64,000 nucleotides of DNA from Rasiella rasia (lineage in GTDB: Bacteria; Bacteroidota; Bacteroidia; Flavobacteriales; Flavobacteriaceae). Both the position numbers and the translations under genes were made by a program. The DNA lies in contig NZ_CP049057.1 of NCBI RefSeq assembly GCF_011044175.1, positions 1-64,000 of the forward strand, given 5' to 3'. The notes under the pieces are model-generated. The model worked only from the letters and a program-made list of their open reading frames with translations. It did no database searches and was not told the origin of the DNA. Each line of letters starts with the position of its first letter. Positions within the stretch are counted from its first letter, which is position 1. This document shows, piece by piece, positions 36,173 through 60,754 of the stretch.

Positions 36173-39100
36173 ATGAAAACGAAAGATTTATTTCTTGATC
36201 AATTTGATCCGAAAATTAAAAGTGAAATAATTGAATTTGGAAAACGGCTAAATTCTATGAATGCTGACGTTTTTATACTGATGGCGCGAAAAGCTGCCTG
36301 TTTCATAGATTGTCTTCAAGAACTAAATCTCACCAGCTTAGATGGTTTTATTACATCAGAAAGGATATTAGATTTAGACACAAAATGGTTAAAAGGAAAA
36401 AGAATAGCGATTATTGATGATACAATTATTTCTGGTACGACCTTATTTAAAACTATCAATAAATTAAAAAAAGTAAACGTAGAAAATATTTCTGTTTCCG
36501 TACTTACGGTAGATAAAGAGCATTTTGTTGAAGATTTACTTATTAATGACGATACTCAAGAAAGTTATCTTTTAGAACCATATTTAAAGTTGTCACATAC
36601 CGAATGTATTAAGGTATGTTCAGATATCGTAAACGCTTTATCAATATTTCCAAGACCTTACAATGTTGACTTCCCATATATCAGTAAAGTAAACATCTTA
36701 GAAAATGATTTTATAAGATTTGTACAACTCACTAATTGGACGTTAGAGGACGGAACGTCGTACCTTCAAAACAGGCATAACACCTTCACATATTCATTTA
36801 CTCCAAATTTCAGCCTTGAGGACGAATTTGATCAATTACTCGGTATAAAAGCATCTAAATTTGCAATGCTAAAAATAAGAGCATTTGGGAAATATTTAAA
36901 AAAAGATAAGAATTCTTATATATTAAAAATACTCCCAGTTGTAGTTTTAAAGCCATTAAGTTACAACAATATCGATGACCTATTTGAATCGATTAAGATG
37001 ATTAATAGTGATGACACTTTTAATCAGATAAAGACCAAATCATCAAAACTACGATTTATACAATATTTTTTAGCCTCTATACTTGCGGAGTTTTGGGTAA
37101 ATTCTATCTCGAAATTTATAAATGCAAAAGTTGAAATAAATCATGATGTCTCGTCACTAAGGCTACTTTATAATCAAGATATTATTTCTTCGTTCTTGAA
37201 ATTAATGAAAGTCAAAACTGTTCCAGTGCTTTTAAATGACATTCATTTAGAACCTGACGAAATTAACATCGATAATCTTGACTATATTCCCCATAATAAA
37301 CGCGATGATGAAAATGTTGAATCAATACATTTATTATTAACCGAGCCATTTCTTAGATTGTATCATGAGAAGGAAAAGAAAGCATGGGAGACTGTAAAAA
37401 AGTATGGCCGTAACGTCTTTGAAAATCCTGAATATATAAAACTAGTAAATCGTCTGGAGAAGGGATTTTCCTTGTCTTTCTTAATAAAACTATTAGATTT
37501 TTCTGAGGATATAAACTCCGCTAAAATCGTTTCATCATTCTTAGACAAGGCTATTGATATCGGAATAGCAGTTCCTATAATTGTTGACGATTCAGAGGAA
37601 AAACTCATCTATAGAGCCTATAGACATGGAGAAGATGTCCCTTTCGGAGAAAAAGAGGAAAAACTTTTAGCCATAGTAATTAAAGCTTTTTCGGAATCAC
37701 TAGGAAGTGAGAACTTACAGCACATTTGGTTAGAAAAACTTACTGTGTTGTTATTAAAAATTGGCATACAAAATAAATTTCTCAATCCAATTATAACAAA
37801 TATTCCCCAAAGGGATACTATAACTTCAAAAAAGGGTCATTTAACTGCTGTTGCTTCTATTAAATCATATCTTTATGGACCTGTGGCAACTTTCAAAGAA
37901 TATGAAATCGGCGAATCAATTAATTCCAAACCTTTCCTAGAACCCGGGGAAAAAGATTTATGGCTATCTAATGTACTTTTAGAAAAAGGAATAATTATCA
38001 AAGAACCAATCAAAAATCTATACAGATTTAATCAGTTTCCTAATATCTCGTTAGATGAAAAACTTGAAGGAAAAGCTGAAAATATTGGATTGGTGTTTGG
38101 AGAATTAATGAAGAAGAAAATAATTTCAAAAGACAATGATTTAGTGAAACTGACAGCCTGTGTTTATCCCCAAGATTGTCTACAATCTTTGGCAGCAGAA
38201 ATCAACATCTTCAACAAGAAATGGAGATATTATCAGCAATATTTAGAACGAAATTTTCATAATAAAAAAATGCATTATCAATTAGCTGAAGGGGTTAGAA
38301 ATTCAAATCTGGCCTTTACAGCTATCAATAGCGGCCAACAAAAATTCTTTTGGTTCATTGAAAAAGATGCCTTGAAATTAATTGATCATATTAAAAATAT
38401 TATCGAGCCAAAATATTTGAAGAATATATGGGCAGAATTTTGGTCTCCAAATAAAGATTGGAATATAGAATCAATTGATAAAGATCTTTATAAAGGCATA
38501 ATTAATCAAGGACTATGGCTTATTTCAATGAACAGTTATTTGAGGATTTTAGACTATAGTCTTAGAAATACTGCTATTCCAGAAGGTAAAATTCAAATTA
38601 ATAAAAACAATAATCTAAAAAATAAGAGGTTTGAAGAAATTAAGGAGTATCACAAAAAGCTTACAAAATATAAATCAAATAAACGGACTCGAGAAATTAT
38701 ACCATTCGTCGAAAGTTTAATCAATAAAAGAAATGAGCTTTCTGAAACTGACCACTTGGCAAATATTAAAATAGTTTTAACTAAAATTAGAAGTTTAGTA
38801 AATAACTCAAAGGTATTATTGGACAACACAGATCTACTCGTAAATAAATTTGGAAAAATTGAAAATATTCAGAGGTTTAACCACACATTATATATCGACA
38901 TTGATGAAAGTTCATTTTTTTTAAAAAAAAGAGTCTGGAAAGAAATTTTTGACTTCATCGATCAATATAAAATAGACCTAAATAATTCTGAAGACCAGGA
39001 AGATTTAATTATTCAAATACCACATGACAAAAACGTGCTAGAACGAGGAGTATGGTTTGCTTCGAATGGTTCACTTAGCTCTACCACCTTAGTAGATTTA

Positions 39101-40255
39101 GTGCATAAAATTATCGAAAAATTCACATCGACTTTAAAAGTTAAATGCGTAATATTCGGACAGTTACCTGAAGACTTTAGAATAAAGACAGCTGGAACAA
39201 ATAGTTCGAATATTAAATTCGGTAATTTTTGGACACAAGTTTCGCTGTTATCTGAATTTTTTACTATAGATTTTCAGAAAAATATCGAAGAAAGCGAATT
39301 AATTTCGTTAATAGAAAATAAAGAAATTCTAAACTCGGAGTTCAACAAATTATTGGAACCAGAAAAATATCAATATGAATTACGTTCTTCGCTAGAAATT
39401 AAGGATCAAGGTGTTTTTAATAACAATTTTATCTACGAACAATATATATACTCAAGCAAGATGACCAAAGAAAACGCAGACATAGGTGTTATTACTGTTG
39501 TAACTCACGAAACAAGGGCTGTTTTAAAGCATCTACGAATAAATCCAAAAAATGATATTTTAAAAAACGGACGATCCTTCTATGAAGGTGTTACAGAGGC
39601 TTCTGAAAAGGGAATACATAAAATTGTTGTAACTCAGCAATTAGATATTGGAAATAGATCAGTTATCCCTGCATATAATGCTCTAGTAAACACTTATCGA
39701 CCAAAATTAATTATTTTACTTGGTATAGCAGGAAGCATTTCAAAAGATCTTGAACTTTGCGATGTGGTGATTGCAAATCAGGTTATTTATTACGAGAATA
39801 GAAAGGAAGTCCCTAATAAAACAAATCGGAGGGGCGAAATGTATAAAATTGAAGTAAAGCTAAAACAAGTTATCAATAAATTTTTTGTAATACATAATGA
39901 GCCGGCAGTTTTCAAGGCAGAAAAAGATTCTTTAAATGAGGATTTTCAAATTTTGACTGGTCCTATTGGAAGCGGAGAAGCTGTAATTGCAGATAATGCA
40001 TCAAGTATAAAAGAATGGTTGCTTGAAGTTAACTCTAAGACCCTTGCGCTCGAAATGGAAGCTGGAGGGTTTCTACAAGCATTTTATGAAGATGGATTAT
40101 CCGAATTTCAACCCATTCATGGAGTTTTAGTCATTCGTGGTATTTCTGACCATGCCGATTTTGAAAAAGATGATAAATGGAGAAAACCAGCTTCTGAAAA
40201 TGCCGTTAAATGCTTATCGGAAATTTTAAAAATTATTCCCGAATTCGAAATATAA
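36173..40255 (+). CDS. phosphoribosyltransferase-like / nucleoside phosphorylase fusion, candidate conflict-system protein
   Basis: This 1360-residue protein has no family that I recognise over its whole length. Residues about 25-150 look like a type I phosphoribosyltransferase: DVFILMARK (32-40), then IIDDTIISGTTL (80-91), the PRPP-binding loop. Residues about 165-1095 are AT-rich-coded, mostly helical, and unlike any domain I know. Residues about 1103-1356 are a PNP/MTAN-type nucleosidase fold: LLGIAGSISKDLELCDVV, GPIGSGE, EMEAGG (1294-1299) and RGISDHAD with the catalytic aspartate kept. PRTase and PNP domains recur in nucleotide-centred conflict systems, so an anti-phage or nucleotide-depleting role is inferred only. 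It opens the accessory island after dnaK. Confidence 0.75.
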   Translation: MKTKDLFLDQFDPKIKSEIIEFGKRLNSMNADVFILMARKAACFIDCLQELNLTSLDGFITSERILDLDTKWLKGKRIAIIDDTIISGTTLFKTINKLKKVNVENISVSVLTVDKEHFVEDLLINDDTQESYLLEPYLKLSHTECIKVCSDIVNALSIFPRPYNVDFPYISKVNILENDFIRFVQLTNWTLEDGTSYLQNRHNTFTYSFTPNFSLEDEFDQLLGIKASKFAMLKIRAFGKYLKKDKNSYILKILPVVVLKPLSYNNIDDLFESIKMINSDDTFNQIKTKSSKLRFIQYFLASILAEFWVNSISKFINAKVEINHDVSSLRLLYNQDIISSFLKLMKVKTVPVLLNDIHLEPDEINIDNLDYIPHNKRDDENVESIHLLLTEPFLRLYHEKEKKAWETVKKYGRNVFENPEYIKLVNRLEKGFSLSFLIKLLDFSEDINSAKIVSSFLDKAIDIGIAVPIIVDDSEEKLIYRAYRHGEDVPFGEKEEKLLAIVIKAFSESLGSENLQHIWLEKLTVLLLKIGIQNKFLNPIITNIPQRDTITSKKGHLTAVASIKSYLYGPVATFKEYEIGESINSKPFLEPGEKDLWLSNVLLEKGIIIKEPIKNLYRFNQFPNISLDEKLEGKAENIGLVFGELMKKKIISKDNDLVKLTACVYPQDCLQSLAAEINIFNKKWRYYQQYLERNFHNKKMHYQLAEGVRNSNLAFTAINSGQQKFFWFIEKDALKLIDHIKNIIEPKYLKNIWAEFWSPNKDWNIESIDKDLYKGIINQGLWLISMNSYLRILDYSLRNTAIPEGKIQINKNNNLKNKRFEEIKEYHKKLTKYKSNKRTREIIPFVESLINKRNELSETDHLANIKIVLTKIRSLVNNSKVLLDNTDLLVNKFGKIENIQRFNHTLYIDIDESSFFLKKRVWKEIFDFIDQYKIDLNNSEDQEDLIIQIPHDKNVLERGVWFASNGSLSSTTLVDLVHKIIEKFTSTLKVKCVIFGQLPEDFRIKTAGTNSSNIKFGNFWTQVSLLSEFFTIDFQKNIEESELISLIENKEILNSEFNKLLEPEKYQYELRSSLEIKDQGVFNNNFIYEQYIYSSKMTKENADIGVITVVTHETRAVLKHLRINPKNDILKNGRSFYEGVTEASEKGIHKIVVTQQLDIGNRSVIPAYNALVNTYRPKLIILLGIAGSISKDLELCDVVIANQVIYYENRKEVPNKTNRRGEMYKIEVKLKQVINKFFVIHNEPAVFKAEKDSLNEDFQILTGPIGSGEAVIADNASSIKEWLLEVNSKTLALEMEAGGFLQAFYEDGLSEFQPIHGVLVIRGISDHADFEKDDKWRKPASENAVKCLSEILKIIPEFEI

Positions 40256-41356: not shown

Positions 41357-41488
41357 GCCCAACAATGTATAACCGCAATTACGGCGAATTCGACTACGTC
41401 CGAATCCACTCGGAATTACGAGCGTTAGTACCAAACAGAAAAAAACAACTTAAAACGCATAACTGACGGTTATACAAGACCGTTAACC
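41357..41488 (+). repeat. attC-like site B
   Basis: The site runs GCCCAAC (41357-41363, matching RYYYAAC), two bases, TGTATAACCG (41366-41375), a 91-base centre, CGGTTATACA (41467-41476), then AGAC and CGTTAACC (41481-41488). The 10-bp arms are a perfect inverted repeat. The length of 132 bp equals that of site F. The stop of the preceding gene is 8 bp upstream. Confidence 0.6.
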
Positions 41489-42624
41489 TTCATTACGACT
41501 AACTGACTAATCAGGATGAAATTATTTGAAGCAGTTAAGCATAAATCACTGTTTAAAGTAACTCGTTTTATATGCTAATCCTATCCTTTTTTCCATTAGT
41601 AATACTTCAGGTTTATCTTTTCTTAAACCAACTTGCCAATTATTAAAAATCTCCCAATCATCGTTACTAAAAATTGGGTTTCCATACTGATTCATCAAGG
41701 CTCTTCTAATTCTATCTTCTTCTCCTTTTCCCGTCAAAATCCATACTACATTAAGCTTATTATCTCCAAAACGAGCTTCAATTTTTCTTGGAAACCCCAA
41801 ATAATCTACACCAAAACAGTTTATCTGAATTTGAGCATTGGGATCTGATCCATCTAGTTTTTCTGTATTAGTAAAATTACTACGGGCTTCTAATATTGGT
41901 TTTAATTCGTCAATAGTGGCTCCCATTTTAAGAAATGCCGGAATTTGATCTGAGGAATTAGGCTCGGTTTCGTCTTTATAGCTTAAATCTATATACGGAT
42001 TTTCCCAAGCATATAGATTAGTATGCATTGCTTCTTTTGTCAATATCCAAGCGGCATCCTTGTTTTTATCTAAAAATAACCTATCTGCAACATAGACATC
42101 ATAGTTCAAATATACTCTGGCTGTATCAATACGCTTACTTACAAAAACTTTCTGTACATTCCCCCTTACCTCTATGTATTTAAGCGTGTCGTCGGCAAAT
42201 GTAAATACAACTTTGTCAATTATTCCATTACTAGTCTTTACTTGAGAGCAGACTAAGTGCTCCTCTTTTAATTTTGCTAAGGGAAAGTTTGGATTGTCGA
42301 CCGATATCGTGTCTACTGTTTTAGATATTTCTTTTAATTTTTGAACAGTTTTTTCTAGTGATTCATTCAACTTAACACCATTGAATATTGATTCAGTCTG
42401 TGCATAAAACATGCAAGGTGTAATCAGAAAAATAATTGTGAATATAATTTTATGCAAATTCATAATTGGAAAATTTCTTTATTATTCTATAAGGATATCA
42501 TTAAGCTTGATTGTTACAACATATATAAAAAATAGTAGTTTCAGTACTTAAACGAAAGATAGATAATAAAATAAAGGTCAGTTATAAACCGGAAAGTTAG
42601 TACTTAAAAATCTGCTACTTTTCA
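41481..42624. repeat. 1.14-kb direct repeat, copy 1
   Basis: This block, from CGTTAACC to CTACTTTTCA, recurs at 54192-55336. The only difference I found is one extra T in copy 2. It contains one minus-strand gene and the left part of site C. Confidence 0.95.
41546..42463 (-). CDS. exported protein of unknown function (intact duplicate)
   Basis: The 305-residue protein has a signal peptide (IIFTIIFLITPCMFYAQ) and no recognisable domain. The mature sequence mixes charged and aromatic residues, with a YLNYDVYVADRLF segment in the middle and WILTGKGEEDRIRRALMNQYGNP toward the end. It is the only minus-strand gene in this part of the island. It is intact here; its copy at 54257-55175 has a frameshift. 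It is probably periplasmic or outer-surface; I cannot assign a role. Confidence 0.75.
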   Translation of the reverse strand: MNLHKIIFTIIFLITPCMFYAQTESIFNGVKLNESLEKTVQKLKEISKTVDTISVDNPNFPLAKLKEEHLVCSQVKTSNGIIDKVVFTFADDTLKYIEVRGNVQKVFVSKRIDTARVYLNYDVYVADRLFLDKNKDAAWILTKEAMHTNLYAWENPYIDLSYKDETEPNSSDQIPAFLKMGATIDELKPILEARSNFTNTEKLDGSDPNAQIQINCFGVDYLGFPRKIEARFGDNKLNVVWILTGKGEEDRIRRALMNQYGNPIFSNDDWEIFNNWQVGLRKDKPEVLLMEKRIGLAYKTSYFKQ

Positions 42625-42642
42625 TATACAAAACCGTCGTGT
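42514..42642 (+). repeat. attC-like site C
   Basis: TTACAACATATATAAAAAATAGTAG on the left pairs imperfectly with CTGCTACTTTTCATATAC on the right, and the right end reads CCGTCGTG rather than CGTT. The inner ends GTACTTAA (left) and TTAGTACTTAA (right) also pair. It separates the duplicated gene from the SRPBCC operon. Confidence 0.45.
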
Positions 42643-49587: not shown

Positions 49588-49623
49588 TCAAAGTGTACAA
49601 ATAATTAATACATTTTAAAAAAA

Positions 49624-49650
49624 TGTCACGTTTTCACTTTTCAAATTGTC
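49624..49650 (+). promoter_or_regulatory. ECF41-type promoter of the sigma gene
   Basis: TGTCACG, 16 bp, TGTC. The ECF41 consensus is TGTCACA-N16-CGTC, so this is one mismatch in each box and exact spacing. The sigma gene starts 27 bp downstream, implying autoregulation. Confidence 0.75.
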
Positions 49651-49677
49651 ATACCTTCAAAACATAATAATTAGATT

Positions 49678-50508
49678 TTGAAAAATTATCACGACATATT
49701 GTTTCCATTCGCATATAACATTCTTGGTTCTTCTGAAGATGCAAAAGATACTATTCAAGATATTCTTGTAAAGTACTTGATAATTGACAAAGAGCATATT
49801 GAGAATGAAATTGGATATTTAATCAAGTCTGTCATCAATCAATCGATTAATGTAAAAAAGAAGAAAAAAGCAATAGCTACAGATAGTATTTGGCTTCCAG
49901 AGCCACTTTCAACCGAAAATGCAGATGACAACATCAATTACAATGAGATTTTATCTTATTCAATGCTTACGCTTCTGGAGAAATTAACAGCAAAAGAACG
50001 TGCTGTTTTTATTTTAAAAGTAGCTTTTGATTATTCTCATAAAGAAATTGCCGAAACCATTGGTTTTACAATTGAAAATTCAAGAAAATTATTAAGTAGA
50101 GCAAAAATTAAACTGAATAATAGCAAAACAAAAAACAATAGTATTCCCAAAAATGAATACCAAAAATTGAAGCAATACATTGAAGCAATGCAAAATGGAA
50201 ACTTGTCTGCTTTAGAAAAACTACTATCTAAAGACATACTACTAGCCGCAGATGGAGGGAAAAACATTAAAGTAGTTAGAGAATTAACAAGCGGTATAAC
50301 AAACACTTCTAAGCTATTACTTTATGTTTATAGAGCCTTTTTAACTGGTTTAGAGATTAAACACACTATCATAAATCACCAACCTGCTATTCTATTTTAT
50401 CAAAATGAGGTACTTAAAAATTGTCAAATATTTGAAATAGAAAAAAATTTGATTGTAAATATTTACTCTATTGTTGATCCAAATAAACTAAAATCACTTT
50501 CCTTATAA
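49678..50508 (+). CDS. ECF41-type sigma factor with SnoaL-like C-terminal domain
   Basis: The 276-residue sigma-70 family protein has an N-terminal region 2 (FAYNILGSSEDAKDTIQDILVKYL) and region 4 (TAKERAVFILKVAFDYSHKEIAETIGF). The linker has the ECF41 motif WLPEP (72-76), and the SnoaL-like tail has DGGK (192-195, ECF41 DGGGK) and DPNKL (267-271, like NPDKL). The tail controls activity without a separate anti-sigma factor. The start is a TTG. Matching promoters precede this gene and the azoreductase gene. Confidence 0.92.
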   Translation: MKNYHDILFPFAYNILGSSEDAKDTIQDILVKYLIIDKEHIENEIGYLIKSVINQSINVKKKKKAIATDSIWLPEPLSTENADDNINYNEILSYSMLTLLEKLTAKERAVFILKVAFDYSHKEIAETIGFTIENSRKLLSRAKIKLNNSKTKNNSIPKNEYQKLKQYIEAMQNGNLSALEKLLSKDILLAADGGKNIKVVRELTSGITNTSKLLLYVYRAFLTGLEIKHTIINHQPAILFYQNEVLKNCQIFEIEKNLIVNIYSIVDPNKLKSLSL

Positions 50509-50512
50509 AATT

Positions 50513-50539
50513 TGTCACGTTTTGTCTTTTGGTTTTGTC
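50513..50539 (+). promoter_or_regulatory. ECF41-type promoter of the azoreductase gene
   Basis: TGTCACG, 16 bp, TGTC, the same boxes and spacing as the sigma gene promoter. ATG is 27 bp downstream at 50567. It defines the azoreductase and cupin genes as likely targets. Confidence 0.75.
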
Positions 50540-50566
50540 ATACTATTGAACATAAATACGCAATAG

Positions 50567-54093: not shown

Positions 54094-54198
54094 CAATATA
54101 GAGCTAAATTAAAAGTTTGGTTCTTTTCTGCTATCTTTGTTTTAAATCGAAAATTAGCACATATAAATCTGCTACTTTTCATTTACAAACTCGTTAAC
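54072..54198 (+). repeat. attC-like site ahead of the duplicated block
   Basis: CTCCAACAACGTATATAAAATAGCA on the left pairs imperfectly with TGCTACTTTTCATTTACAAAC on the right, and it ends CTCGTTAACC. The right part shares AAATCTGCTACTTTTCAT with site C. Length is about 127 bp. Confidence 0.5.
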
Positions 54199-55336
54199 CT
54201 TCATTACGACTAACTGACTAATCAGGATGAAATTATTTGAAGCAGTTAAGCATAAATCACTGTTTAAAGTAACTCGTTTTATATGCTAATCCTATCCTTT
54301 TTTCCATTAGTAATACTTCAGGTTTATCTTTTCTTAAACCAACTTGCCAATTATTAAAAATCTCCCAATCATCGTTACTAAAAATTGGGTTTCCATACTG
54401 ATTCATCAAGGCTCTTCTAATTCTATCTTCTTCTCCTTTTCCCGTCAAAATCCATACTACATTAAGCTTATTATCTCCAAAACGAGCTTCAATTTTTCTT
54501 GGAAACCCCAAATAATCTACACCAAAACAGTTTATCTGAATTTGAGCATTGGGATCTGATCCATCTAGTTTTTTCTGTATTAGTAAAATTACTACGGGCT
54601 TCTAATATTGGTTTTAATTCGTCAATAGTGGCTCCCATTTTAAGAAATGCCGGAATTTGATCTGAGGAATTAGGCTCGGTTTCGTCTTTATAGCTTAAAT
54701 CTATATACGGATTTTCCCAAGCATATAGATTAGTATGCATTGCTTCTTTTGTCAATATCCAAGCGGCATCCTTGTTTTTATCTAAAAATAACCTATCTGC
54801 AACATAGACATCATAGTTCAAATATACTCTGGCTGTATCAATACGCTTACTTACAAAAACTTTCTGTACATTCCCCCTTACCTCTATGTATTTAAGCGTG
54901 TCGTCGGCAAATGTAAATACAACTTTGTCAATTATTCCATTACTAGTCTTTACTTGAGAGCAGACTAAGTGCTCCTCTTTTAATTTTGCTAAGGGAAAGT
55001 TTGGATTGTCGACCGATATCGTGTCTACTGTTTTAGATATTTCTTTTAATTTTTGAACAGTTTTTTCTAGTGATTCATTCAACTTAACACCATTGAATAT
55101 TGATTCAGTCTGTGCATAAAACATGCAAGGTGTAATCAGAAAAATAATTGTGAATATAATTTTATGCAAATTCATAATTGGAAAATTTCTTTATTATTCT
55201 ATAAGGATATCATTAAGCTTGATTGTTACAACATATATAAAAAATAGTAGTTTCAGTACTTAAACGAAAGATAGATAATAAAATAAAGGTCAGTTATAAA
55301 CCGGAAAGTTAGTACTTAAAAATCTGCTACTTTTCA
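54192..55336. repeat. 1.14-kb direct repeat, copy 2
   Basis: This is the second copy of 41481-42624, starting at the same CGTTAACC. It has one extra T, in a T-run at 54569-54574, and ends at CTACTTTTCA before unrelated sequence. No transposase is present. The two copies are in direct orientation, 12.7 kb apart. Confidence 0.95.
54257..55175 (-). pseudogene. frameshifted copy of the exported protein gene
   Basis: The first 206 codons from ATG 55175 match the gene at 41546-42463 exactly. A sixth T at 54569-54574 (five in the intact copy) then shifts the frame, which stops early at 54489. The remaining 84 codons stay open in another frame down to 54257. Unless homopolymer slippage restores the frame, the product is truncated. 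Confidence 0.9.
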
Positions 55337-55387
55337 ATCTGATTAGCTAGGCTGGATTTATAAAAAGATCGAAAATAAGTTTTTATA

Positions 55388-55410
55388 GTTAGGAATCCTT
55401 ACTATATTTG
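55388..55410 (+). promoter_or_regulatory. promoter with MarR-type operator (thioredoxin-like gene)
   Basis: GTTAGGAATCCTTAC (55388-55402) is a near-palindrome directly before a perfect TATATTTG -7 element (55403-55410). ATG is 37 bp downstream. The same operator type precedes the next two transcripts. Confidence 0.65.
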
Positions 55411-55446
55411 TAATGCAATTGTGCAATAACATAAATTCTTAATCAA

Positions 55447-55680
55447 ATGAGTAAATCAGTTTTTTATCACGCAGGTTGTCCTGTATGTGTCAGTGCAGAA
55501 CACGACATTATTAATTTAGTAGGAAAAGAAAATGTTGAAGTAGTTAACATTGGCGAAAATCGTACACGAATTTCAGAAGCAGAAAAAGCAGGAGTAAAAT
55601 CTGTTCCAGCGTTAGTTACACCTAATGGCAATGCGTTACACATCAATTTTGGTGCTTCAATTGCAGACGTAAAAGGATAA
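55447..55680 (+). CDS. small thioredoxin/glutaredoxin-like protein (CPVC)
   Basis: The 77-residue protein has the redox motif CPVC (residues 11-14) after a short strand (SVFYHAG) and a later VKSVPALVTPNG with the cis-proline of thioredoxin folds. It lacks the N- and C-terminal elements of full thioredoxin. It probably handles dithiol-disulfide exchange in the cytoplasm. It heads a set of genes behind matching operators and a MarR regulator. Confidence 0.83.
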   Translation: MSKSVFYHAGCPVCVSAEHDIINLVGKENVEVVNIGENRTRISEAEKAGVKSVPALVTPNGNALHINFGASIADVKG

Positions 55681-55697
55681 TTTTTTAACTTATAAAG

Positions 55698-55730
55698 TTA
55701 GGATTCCTAATATATTGTAGGTATCCTAAC
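55698..55730 (+). promoter_or_regulatory. tandem MarR-type operators
   Basis: TTAGGATTCCTAA (55698-55710), a near-perfect palindrome, is followed by a second partial copy GTAGGTATCCTAAC (55717-55730). They lie 19 bp or more before the start of the exported protein gene at 55749. Confidence 0.6.
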
Positions 55731-55748
55731 TTTTTAAAACAATTTAGT

Positions 55749-56468
55749 ATGAAATCAATAATATTATTTTCAGCCATGGTTTTTTCGGTACTTCAAACCG
55801 GCTATACCCAAGAAAGCGAATACAGAAATGACGACTTTTTAATAAATGAAGTTAGCGTAACGCACCAAGCCGATTTAGGCATTACAATTTGGGAAATACG
55901 TGTGAATGGCAAGGCGGGCAACACAACGCCTACAAAAGTTGGTCAACTCAATGGCGCACCAGTTTTGGGATATGTGTTTCCAACCAGTTTAAAATCAACC
56001 GACGTAGGTTTCAATCAAACAGCTGGTATTGTAGCACTTGCTCTAACATCTCATCCCGACTTTGATGATACACCTTTGTGGGACGAGAATAACGATAACG
56101 TTTATGATAACGATGGCGTTATTTGGCATCCTCATTGGGTTATTCTTCACGAAGATAAACGAGTAGGGGGAGGTCTTTCAGTAAAACAATTTAAAAAAGC
56201 AGATGAAGCAGTTATATTACCGCCAACAAATCCAGGAATGCCAATGTATATGGACTCACCAGGTTATCCTGTTTCCACTAAAAATAGAACCATAAAAGTC
56301 ATAGTTCCTGATTACCGAATGAACAACAAAACAGAATTTAATTATGATGGTGTTACAGCTTTTATGAAAGTTAACACAAGTAATGAAAACTTACCAATGT
56401 TGGGCGTTTATGAAGTTTTTAGTGTAGCAAGTGGAGATTTGTCTTTACCCTATAAAGTTAAAAAGTAA
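55749..56468 (+). CDS. exported protein of unknown function
   Basis: The 239-residue protein has a signal peptide ending near GYTQE. The mature part is rich in beta-type sequence: EIRVNGKAGNTTPTKVGQLNG, then WHPHWVILHEDKRVGGG and VPDYRMNNKTEFNYDG. Acidic DENNDNVYDNDG near residue 117 looks like a calcium loop. I do not recognise the family. It is preceded by MarR-type operators and followed 4 bp later by the DUF2024 gene. Confidence 0.72.
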   Translation: MKSIILFSAMVFSVLQTGYTQESEYRNDDFLINEVSVTHQADLGITIWEIRVNGKAGNTTPTKVGQLNGAPVLGYVFPTSLKSTDVGFNQTAGIVALALTSHPDFDDTPLWDENNDNVYDNDGVIWHPHWVILHEDKRVGGGLSVKQFKKADEAVILPPTNPGMPMYMDSPGYPVSTKNRTIKVIVPDYRMNNKTEFNYDGVTAFMKVNTSNENLPMLGVYEVFSVASGDLSLPYKVKK

Positions 56469-56472
56469 TATC

Positions 56473-56736
56473 ATGAAAATAGCAGTTTGGGACACCTATG
56501 TGAAAAGAGAAGATGGAAAGGTAATGCATTTTGATATTTTGGTTCCAAAAAATATAACAGACGAAACAACCATAATAGCTCATGGTAAGTCTTATTTGGA
56601 AACCAAGGCTTTTGCAACAAACCAATTAACAGCTAATGAATGTCGCCTATGTCATTTTGAACAAGCAACCCAAGATATTATCTTATCAATTCAACAAAAA
56701 GGATACGCAATTATAGAAATGGAAAATTGTAATTAA
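56473..56736 (+). CDS. DUF2024-family protein
   Basis: The 87-residue protein starts KIAVWDTYVKREDGKVMHFDI and contains CRLCHFEQATQDI, the family's cysteine pair (CxxC) and histidine. The role is unknown, but the cysteines suggest metal or redox chemistry. I use the ATG at 56473; the longer frame from 56431 overlaps the preceding gene. It is probably in one transcript with the exported protein gene. Confidence 0.85.
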   Translation: MKIAVWDTYVKREDGKVMHFDILVPKNITDETTIIAHGKSYLETKAFATNQLTANECRLCHFEQATQDIILSIQQKGYAIIEMENCN

Positions 56737-56741
56737 TTTAA

Positions 56742-56759
56742 TTAGGATTGCTAACTTTG
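56742..56759 (+). promoter_or_regulatory. MarR-type operator and promoter of the marR gene
   Basis: TTAGGATTGCTAA (56742-56754) overlaps a perfect TAACTTTG -7 element (56752-56759), 30 bp before the ATG. The regulator probably represses itself. Confidence 0.65.
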
Positions 56760-56789
56760 CCTGTCGAATAATTCTCGACAGGCTTTTTT

Positions 56790-57401
56790 ATGAAAGAAAG
56801 TACATTTAATCCAAAACAGCAAGAAAACGATATTTCGAGTAAAATCGTTGTAGGATTGGAACGTGTTTCAGAAGTATTTAAAATCTTATTATGGGAGCAA
56901 GCTAAAATGGTTGGATTAAGTCCAATTCAAATTCAGATACTTATTTTCATAGCATTCCATAAAACAGATTTATGTAACGTTAGTCACCTTGCTAGAGAGT
57001 TTAATATAACAAAACCGACTGTAAGTGATGCTGTTAGAATTTTGGACAAGAAAGGGCTTATCATAAAGGACTATTCATCATCTGACAGTCGAAGTTATTC
57101 AATATCCCTATCTAAATTAGGTAATGAAATAGTCTCACAAACGAACGACTTCTCAAGTCCGTTAAAAAAGGAAGTCAATGCATTTTCGCAATCTGAATTA
57201 GAGAGTTTGTTTGCAACGTTAAGTCAACTAATATATAAGCTAAACCGCAATGGAATTTTGAGTGTTCAAAGAACTTGTTTTGCTTGTAAGTTTTATGAAA
57301 GAAATCGAGAAGTTGATTATTGCAACCTACTTCAAAAAGAATTATTGAATAAGGAAATCCGATTGGATTGTCCAGAATATGAAGAAAGAGCTAGTGGCTA
57401 A
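56790..57401 (+). CDS. MarR-family regulator with C-terminal cysteine cluster
   Basis: The 203-residue protein has a MarR winged helix: VSHLAREFNITKPTVSDAVRILDKKGLI, with the wing DSRSYSISLSKLG. Beyond the usual length is a tail with four cysteines, C163, C166, C178 and C194 (CFAC, YC, DCPE). This is likely a metal, Fe-S or thiol switch. Operators TTAGGAWTCCTAA before this gene and two upstream transcripts suggest a redox-responsive local regulon. Its TAA stop lies inside site F. Confidence 0.88.
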   Translation: MKESTFNPKQQENDISSKIVVGLERVSEVFKILLWEQAKMVGLSPIQIQILIFIAFHKTDLCNVSHLAREFNITKPTVSDAVRILDKKGLIIKDYSSSDSRSYSISLSKLGNEIVSQTNDFSSPLKKEVNAFSQSELESLFATLSQLIYKLNRNGILSVQRTCFACKFYERNREVDYCNLLQKELLNKEIRLDCPEYEERASG

Positions 57402-57528
57402 CAACATATATAATTAATCCCTATTTCTAGTCTACTTACCAAATTACTAGCAGATTTTCTATTCAGTTTGTATATGCTAAACTAGTTGTTTAAATCACCC
57501 AATAGCTCGTAGCCAAGACCGTTGGGCT
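57397..57528 (+). repeat. attC-like site F
   Basis: GGCTAAC (57397-57403) followed by AACATATATAA forms the left end; CAAGACCGTTGGGC is the right end, with GTTGGGC (57522-57528) matching GTTRRRY. The centre has TTTGTATATG, complementary to the left CATATATAA. The site is 132 bp long, like site B, and its outer part recurs degraded at 60365. Confidence 0.5.
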
Positions 57529-57586
57529 TCATTATTTGATTACCCCAATTAATTAAAAATCATATCTTTAGAGAAACTATCGACTT

Positions 57587-58375
57587 ATGATAAAATTCTT
57601 TCGGAAAATACGCTACGACCTTCTAGGAAAAAATAAAACTGGAAAGTACATTAAATATGCTATTGGAGAAATTGTACTTGTGGTTATTGGAATTTTGATT
57701 GCGCTACAGATTAATAACTGGAATGAGCAAAGAAAAGACAGAACAAAAGAAACTATTTTACTAAATCAACTTCGAGAAGATTATCAGGCTAATCTAATTC
57801 AACTTGAAGAAAAAATGACGACAAGAGAAAAGATTGTAATTTCGGCAGTTTCATTATTAGAAGCATTTGATTACCCGCAGAAGGCAAATAGAGATAGCGT
57901 TATAAAAAAAATTGCAATTATCGGAAACGATCCAACGTTTGACCCTATAAAGAATGATTTAAACAGTTCTGAGAATTTAAGATTGATTAGAAATGTAAAA
58001 TTAAGTCGCTTGCTGTCCAATTGGTCATCAGATGTAGTTGCAGTTAAAGAGGTTGAGGATCTTTGGACTAAAATAGTATACAACCAATTTGATTTGGCCA
58101 GTTTAGAATTAGGTATCGGTAGGGATTTGTCAAATAGTTTTATGAACGAACAAGACCATCCTTGGTTATTAGACCAAAATCCAAGTTCATTTAAAATTAA
58201 AATAGGAAAATCAAAATTAGGAGCAAACCTAAATGAAATATTAACCAATAAATATTTAGAAGGTGTTTTAGGGAATGCTATAACAATAAATAAGTCAGCA
58301 AATTTGCAATCTGAGGCATTGCGCAATAGAATTAGGGACATACTGGCTATAATCGAAATTGAATTAAATAAATAA
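57587..58375 (+). CDS. DUF6090-family membrane protein
   Basis: The 262-residue protein begins KFFRKIRYDLLGKNKTGKYIKYAIGEIVLVVIGILIALQINNWNE, the strict start of DUF6090, with one membrane segment at residues 28-44. The rest is a periplasmic helical domain. DUF6090 proteins often occur in clusters in Flavobacteria; no function is established. It is a single-gene block between sites F and G. Confidence 0.85.
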   Translation: MIKFFRKIRYDLLGKNKTGKYIKYAIGEIVLVVIGILIALQINNWNEQRKDRTKETILLNQLREDYQANLIQLEEKMTTREKIVISAVSLLEAFDYPQKANRDSVIKKIAIIGNDPTFDPIKNDLNSSENLRLIRNVKLSRLLSNWSSDVVAVKEVEDLWTKIVYNQFDLASLELGIGRDLSNSFMNEQDHPWLLDQNPSSFKIKIGKSKLGANLNEILTNKYLEGVLGNAITINKSANLQSEALRNRIRDILAIIEIELNK

Positions 58376-60364: not shown

Positions 60365-60550
60365 TATAATTAATCCCTAGTTCTAGTCTACTTACCAAAT
60401 TACTAGCAGCTTCTCTATTCAGTTTGTATATGTTATACTAGTTATTTAAATCACCCAACAGCTCATTACCAAAATCGATATACTACATTAATTAAATTTC
60501 AAAACTCATTAATTATCATATCTTTAAAGAAACTAACGGCTTGTGATAAA
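60365..60550 (+). repeat. degraded copy of site F and flanking leader
   Basis: About 185 bp from TATAATTAATCCC to TGATAAA align with 57407-57594 at high identity by eye, including ACTTACCAAATTACTAGCAG and CATATCTTTA. The CGTT end of site F is not kept. It marks another block boundary. Confidence 0.7.
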
Positions 60551-60754
60551 AAGGAACCTAAAAACTTTGACTTAGATTTTTACTTAAAGGAAAAAATTAA
60601 AAATTGGGATAGATTTGAGATTCCGAAGTACGAGAATGAAGAGAACAACATTGTTTATGTACTTGGTGCAGGAGCGTCTGATTAACTAAAACTTCATTAT
60701 AATGACGATGGCCTGATAATAAAGCTAGCGTATAGAAGCGAAGACCCAGGGTAA
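60542..60754 (+). pseudogene. remnant of a small gene with in-frame stop
   Basis: An open frame reads CDKKEPKNFDLDFYLKEK, then VYVLGAGASD, a TAA at 60683-60685, then LHYNDDGLIIKLAYRSEDPG and a TAA at 60752-60754, all in one frame. The continuous sensible protein sequence on both sides of the internal TAA points to a nonsense mutation. The start is lost in the degraded repeat upstream. The family is not recognised. Confidence 0.6.

Follow-up and report, generated by a model that had tools for sequence, protein, structure and literature searches.

A duplicated 1.1-kb block in Rasiella rasia and its probable origin as a cassette of an integron-like system

Introduction

The first 64,000 nucleotides of the Rasiella rasia chromosome (NZ_CP049057.1, positions 1 to 64,000; hereafter the window) carry the same 1.1-kb sequence twice, which raises the question of how the second copy arose. 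A first-pass annotation, made from the sequence alone, had answered with the insertion of a cassette at the crossover point of an attC-like site, CG/TT (a slash in a sequence marks the crossover). The comparisons described here, within the window, along the rest of the chromosome and across related genomes, indicate that the duplication itself is ordinary cassette behaviour and that the block is part of a large integron-like gene-stockpiling system of Bacteroidota which is apparently undescribed. In a literature search that left preprints and most subscription papers outside its scope, no paper on integron arrays of Flavobacteriaceae was found.

The duplicated block and its edges

Alignment of the two copies, 41481-42624 and 54192-55336, reproduced what had been reported of them: they are the same over 1,144 nt apart from one T, extra in copy 2 and lying in a T run, and both start at CGTTAACC (CG/TTAACC) behind attC-like ends that differ, ACAAGAC before copy 1 and ACAAACT before copy 2. 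The right edges had been placed at CTACTTTTCA, and identity does end there, but the functional right edge of copy 1 is 12 nt further. Past the end of identity, copy 1 continues with TATACAAAACCG/TCGTGTGC (/TCGTG), a normal attC 3' end; copy 2 stops 12 nt before the attC 3' end, which leaves three edges out of four at the crossover point. The genome, one contig of 3.39 Mb, has no third full copy of the block; the last 109 nt of the block also find matches at 776 kb (91%), 738 kb (85%) and 837 kb (80%), all three being related attC sites. The features of the two copies are as follows.

41357 to 41482, plus strand: attC belonging to the cassette before copy 1; R'' at 41357 (GCCCAAC), 3' end GGTTATACAAGACCG, crossover after 41482; weight matrix 10.0
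41483 to 42636, no strand assigned: cassette copy 1, TTAACC ... TATACAAAACCG; from copy alignment, weight matrix and duplicate-edge comparison
41546 to 42463, minus strand: 305-aa gene of copy 1, intact, a predicted secreted protein of unknown function; single open reading frame
42514 to 42636, plus strand: attC of copy 1; R'' TTACAAC, 3' end CATATACAAAACCG; weight matrix 21.5
42637, plus strand: start of the next cassette, TCGTGTGC, its TT core changed from T to C; weight matrix
54149 to 54193, plus strand: attC before copy 2, 3' half, CTACTTTTCATTTACAAACTCG, crossover after 54193; weight matrix 11.0
54194 to 55336, no strand assigned: cassette copy 2, last 12 nt missing; copy alignment
54257 to 55175, minus strand: 305-aa gene of copy 2, frameshifted by the extra T into two pieces; open reading frames and copy alignment
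55226 to 55336, plus strand: truncated attC of copy 2, L'/R' end missing; copy alignment and R'' position

The 305-aa protein has no Pfam match at E<=0.001, and in a fold search its AlphaFold model (pLDDT 71.8) likewise matched nothing in the PDB at E<=0.001. Twelve relatives, 59-92% identical, came from scanning genome contigs, and these can be used to locate the edge of the block independently of its two copies. In six related genomes (L016-L021) homology begins at the same TT behind unrelated left flanks, and so in these genomes as in the two copies it starts at the crossover base, neither well inside nor well outside it, which had been the point at which the cassette reading could have failed. 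A left edge at G/TT behind an attC is thereby found in independent contexts, the two copies and six other genomes. Over 27 pairs, the pair of copy 1 and copy 2 excluded, mean identity is 0.79 in the first 150 nt inside the edge, and 0.589 in the left flank vs 0.580 for a shuffled flank. The bases before the TT are CG in five of the six relatives and CA in L016. In four other relatives (L022-L025) the left end, as read, has no attC boundary; this comparison of left ends thus covers ten of the 12 relatives, all but L026 and L027.

The relatives also bear on the attC of the block. In L016 and L017 the cassette ends with R'' GGCCAAC, complementary to its own start. The R'' of the block, TTACAAC (42514), is not complementary to its start, GTTAACC, which points to a foreign attC acquired by the cassette. 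Compared with L016 and L017, the attC of the block has been swapped for another type after GATTGTTACAACAT; the swap is common to both copies, so the duplication is later than the swap.

The right edge of copy 2 can be read against the cassettes that follow it.

55336 to 55337, no strand assigned: junction of two fused cassettes, probably left by a deletion spanning the border with the following one (operon 55447-57401); comparison with L117 and L118
57396 to 57521, plus strand: attC that closes the operon cassette; R'' GGCTAAC, 3' end CCAAGACCG/TTGGGC; weight matrix 10.6
58588, plus strand: further cassette start, CACAAAACAG/TTGTGC; weight matrix 22.5

The region 55337-57400, within which a small operon lies, is matched in 53 of the 199 family genomes. 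In L117 this region is a complete cassette, /TTAGCC...R'' GGCTAAC...CACG/TTGTGC; the operon cassette of the window has kept the R'' GGCTAAC and its left end is gone. On comparison with the complete operon cassette, the right edge of copy 2 was rejected as a cassette edge. The sequence 3' of copy 2 begins to look like L117 at a point about 35 nt into the cassette (10 of 11 nt, a short match). The simplest reading of that match would be one later deletion of about 47 nt in total, with 12 nt taken from copy 2 and about 35 nt from the cassette that follows. A pairing of the R'' at 57396, taken as GGTTAAC, with the left edge of copy 2 was also rejected, the actual R'' being GGCTAAC.

The cassette cluster and the main array

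A weight matrix trained on 76 attC 3' ends from the main array finds five sites in the window, all on the plus strand (41483, 42637, 54194, 57522, 58588) and none on the minus strand; six Markov-shuffled windows gave 0-2 sites. In a genome of the same genus (G073), the gene placed near 63.5 kb in the window comes within about 0.3 kb of dnaK, and the window therefore has an extra segment of about 27 kb (36.0-63.4 kb) between these two genes. The cassettes of the window belong to this accessory segment, and 0.66 Mb separates them from the main array; there is no recombinase gene within the cluster itself.

Several other features of the window were recorded. Between 42637 and 54193 lie 11.5 kb of co-oriented genes with no more attC ends by the matrix, perhaps fused or degenerate cassettes. 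A 1360-aa protein (36173-40255) has a C-terminal phosphorylase-superfamily domain (PNP_UDP_1), and a phosphoribosyltransferase match is weak and below cut-off. A 187-nt direct repeat, 83% identical (57409-57595 and 60365-60551), is the attC plus leader of adjacent cassettes, and a 37-nt repeat, TGTCACGTTTT...GTCATAC, at 49618-49654 and 50507-50543 flanks a sigma-factor-like gene. An Rfam search and a tRNA scan gave no matches in the window.

The main array lies on the same chromosome at 720.5 to 863 kb, where a matrix scan of 714-878 kb found 119 attC 3' ends on the plus strand and one on the minus strand. It holds 117 cassettes shorter than 6 kb, and an R'' was found in 104 of them. Setting aside 24 repeat-type cassettes, whose R'' as a rule fits the own start at three of four bases, leaves 80 ordinary cassettes, and in 70 of these the R'' fits its own start at all four variable bases (permuted mean 3.5; none of 2000 permutations as high). 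A cruder end list, made before the right ends of the repeat type were recognised, gave 36 matches in 75 vs a permuted 3.0. The chromosome thus carries an attC array with R''/R' complementarity. Dispersed duplicate cassettes in the array have exact CG/TT edges at both ends, at 724076 and 811745 (1,535 bp, 99.7%) and at 801412 and 821300 (445 bp, 99.1%). A repeat cassette of 360-363 bp without a clear gene is present in 21 copies, tandem in places (e.g., 756758, 757119 and 757480, 361 bp).

The spacers of the attC sites are 3 and 7 nt in all 104, and in 96 of the 104 the bottom strand is the more stable of the two strands. The first 15 stem positions are free of extra bases in 76 of 104 and have one or two in the other 28, mostly the repeat cassette, these counts covering the attC of this array only. 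Of 365 arm differences, spacer included, 182 are G.T in the bottom strand and 10 in the top strand; they come from 54 distinct but related arm pairs, so that the counts are not independent events.

The recombinase next to the array

Directly 5' of the main array is a gene for a 390-aa tyrosine recombinase, and the gene upstream of it reads as a putative release factor. Relatives of the recombinase were found in 125 of 199 family genomes at E<=1e-40 and in 119 of 295 class genomes at E<=1e-50. Forty of their loci, from 40 genomes (20 closest-tier, 20 next-tier), were chosen, not at random, for having room downstream; at least one downstream attC is found at 31 of the 40 and no downstream match at nine, the search being shortened in seven fetched stretches by a contig end within 15 kb. 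In the 509 kb searched downstream of these loci there are 124 attC ends on the same strand and one on the opposite strand; the 169 kb searched upstream has none on the same strand and two on the opposite strand. A strict pattern places an attI-like site, ATATAAC..GTT, within 250 nt of the stop at 15 of the 21 closest-tier loci, vs 7 of 420 random stretches; by eye it can be made out at four more closest-tier loci, Rasiella rasia among them. An integrase gene and an attI-like site are thus found together at one end of the array, the gene being that of the 390-aa recombinase.

The enzyme is distinct from known integron integrases, for which the additional domain has been used as a defining test (PMC2426708, PMC9668308). 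The IntI additional domain (I2, patch III) is absent from the 390-aa recombinase, which scores 184.9 bits against the IntI profile, below the cut-off of 265. The spacing from the conserved R to HxxRH is 89-90 residues in all 47 measured entries (40 closest-tier and seven next-tier, among which as many as 11 closest-tier genes may count twice because their loci overlap), compared with 131 in 16 of 16 IntI and 96 in XerD; 91 sequences were entered, and those lacking the motif pattern, 13 next-tier ones included, were uncounted. No family genome of 199 has a canonical IntI profile match above cut-off, and the control also matched nowhere; 84 of 296 phylum genomes do pass, so the profile works in the phylum. 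In a tree of 79 sequences, with its rooting open and a few closest-tier genes present twice, the recombinase family, IntI and Xer each form a clade with support 1.0.

Origin of the second copy

On this evidence the block is most probably a cassette of an integron-type system, with the 390-aa recombinase acting at CG/TT, the old copy kept and a later deletion in copy 2. Insertion at CG/TT, as originally proposed, is upheld by the left edges, the start shared by six relatives, the 119-site array, the R'' complementarity and the exact-edged duplicates. The footing of the wider account is what was observed: the cassette edges and their recurrence elsewhere, the array, the R'' complementarity, the adjacency of the recombinase and the absence of the IntI domain. 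From these we infer recombination catalysed by the 390-aa enzyme on a single-strand substrate, the keeping of a copy and an order of events. The recombinase, encoded 0.66 Mb away by the main array, would most likely recombine the folded bottom strand of attC at CG/TT. Excision from one strand would spare the other, and the old copy would be kept on replication; the excised circle would go in behind another attC. With the other strand intact and the circle inserted elsewhere, two identical copies would result. Replicative resolution has been described for IntI (PMC4792948). A small deletion would later have removed the attC end of copy 2 together with the beginning of the cassette after it, fusing the two cassettes and locking copy 2 in place. 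Against this explanation stand the mismatch of the block's R'', the right edge of copy 2 off the crossover point, the nine loci of 40 without a downstream attC, the lack of a recombinase in the window's own cluster and the presence of XerC and XerD in the genome.

The second copy could also be a product of homologous recombination or segmental duplication, in which case its cassette edges would have come with the attC repeats. Over 46 nt, the attC end that precedes copy 2 and the one that closes the cassette are 85% similar, which would let a circle in by homology. Copy 1, however, sits behind an attC of a type unrelated to the cassette's own, identity starts at the crossover base and not within the attC, and the exact-edge pattern recurs in the dispersed duplicates of the main array; we consider this route unlikely. 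XerC and XerD are also encoded in the genome and could in principle act on cassettes. That these host enzymes move them, with the 390-aa enzyme next to the array unrelated, is quite improbable given the separate clade of the 390-aa family and the downstream attC on the same strand at 31 of the 40 chosen loci.

An assembly artefact might be suspected where the two blocks differ internally by no more than a single base of a T run, but the copies lie in one contig with four different flanks, and the changes private to copy 2 include the deletion junction, which makes an artefact hard to credit. An identical 1.1-kb sequence at two sites would also suit a transposon or insertion sequence, which can be ruled out: as the first-pass annotation had noted, the block has no transposase and no terminal inverted repeats (open reading frames, domain search and an inverted-match test against shuffles), the best terminal inverted match, 7 of 12, being equalled in 498 of 500 shuffles, and there is no target duplication either.

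Implications

The block leads to an integron-like array of more than 100 cassettes in one Bacteroidota family, paired with an enzyme below the IntI profile cut-off, and with it to a large store of cassette genes that have yet to be studied. PMC4792948 assigns the recognition of extra-helical bases to the I2 domain and calls the origin of that domain a chicken-and-egg paradox. We give even weight to the proposal that Bacteroidia hold a third branch of cassette-array systems, in which a tyrosine recombinase lacking I2 works on attC-like hairpins whose active strand is marked by G.T wobbles and spacer asymmetry (3 vs 7 nt) and not by extra-helical bases. If true, this branch would either answer, in living form, how attC could predate the I2 domain or represent a second origin of integrons. 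A natural system without the I2 domain and, it appears, largely without extra-helical bases makes the I2-origin paradox testable in a laboratory host.

Comparison with known systems

The system is integron-like in its working, but it is not a canonical IntI integron. With sedentary chromosomal integrons (Vibrio type, IntI) it shares a large array in one direction, R''/R' complementarity of attC, the G/TT crossover, an attI-like site and recombinase at one end, and dispersed duplicate cassettes. It differs from them in a recombinase that lacks the IntI additional domain, forms its own clade and lies on the same strand as the cassettes, and in attC stems that appear mostly to have G.T wobbles instead of extra-helical bases. 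The integron of Treponema denticola, as described in PMC3607928, is alike in that its integrase is transcribed toward attI, in the cassette direction, and unlike in using what that paper terms an intI. Salinibacter ruber provides an integron within the wider phylum (Bacteroidetes); there a complete integron was called by IntegronFinder according to PMC9024848, whereas here the IntI profile passes its cut-off in none of the 199 family genomes. XerA, XerC and XerD resemble the 390-aa family in catalytic fold and in a motif spacing without the extra domain; the family differs from them in its own clade, its roughly 90 extra N-terminal residues and its tie to cassette arrays.
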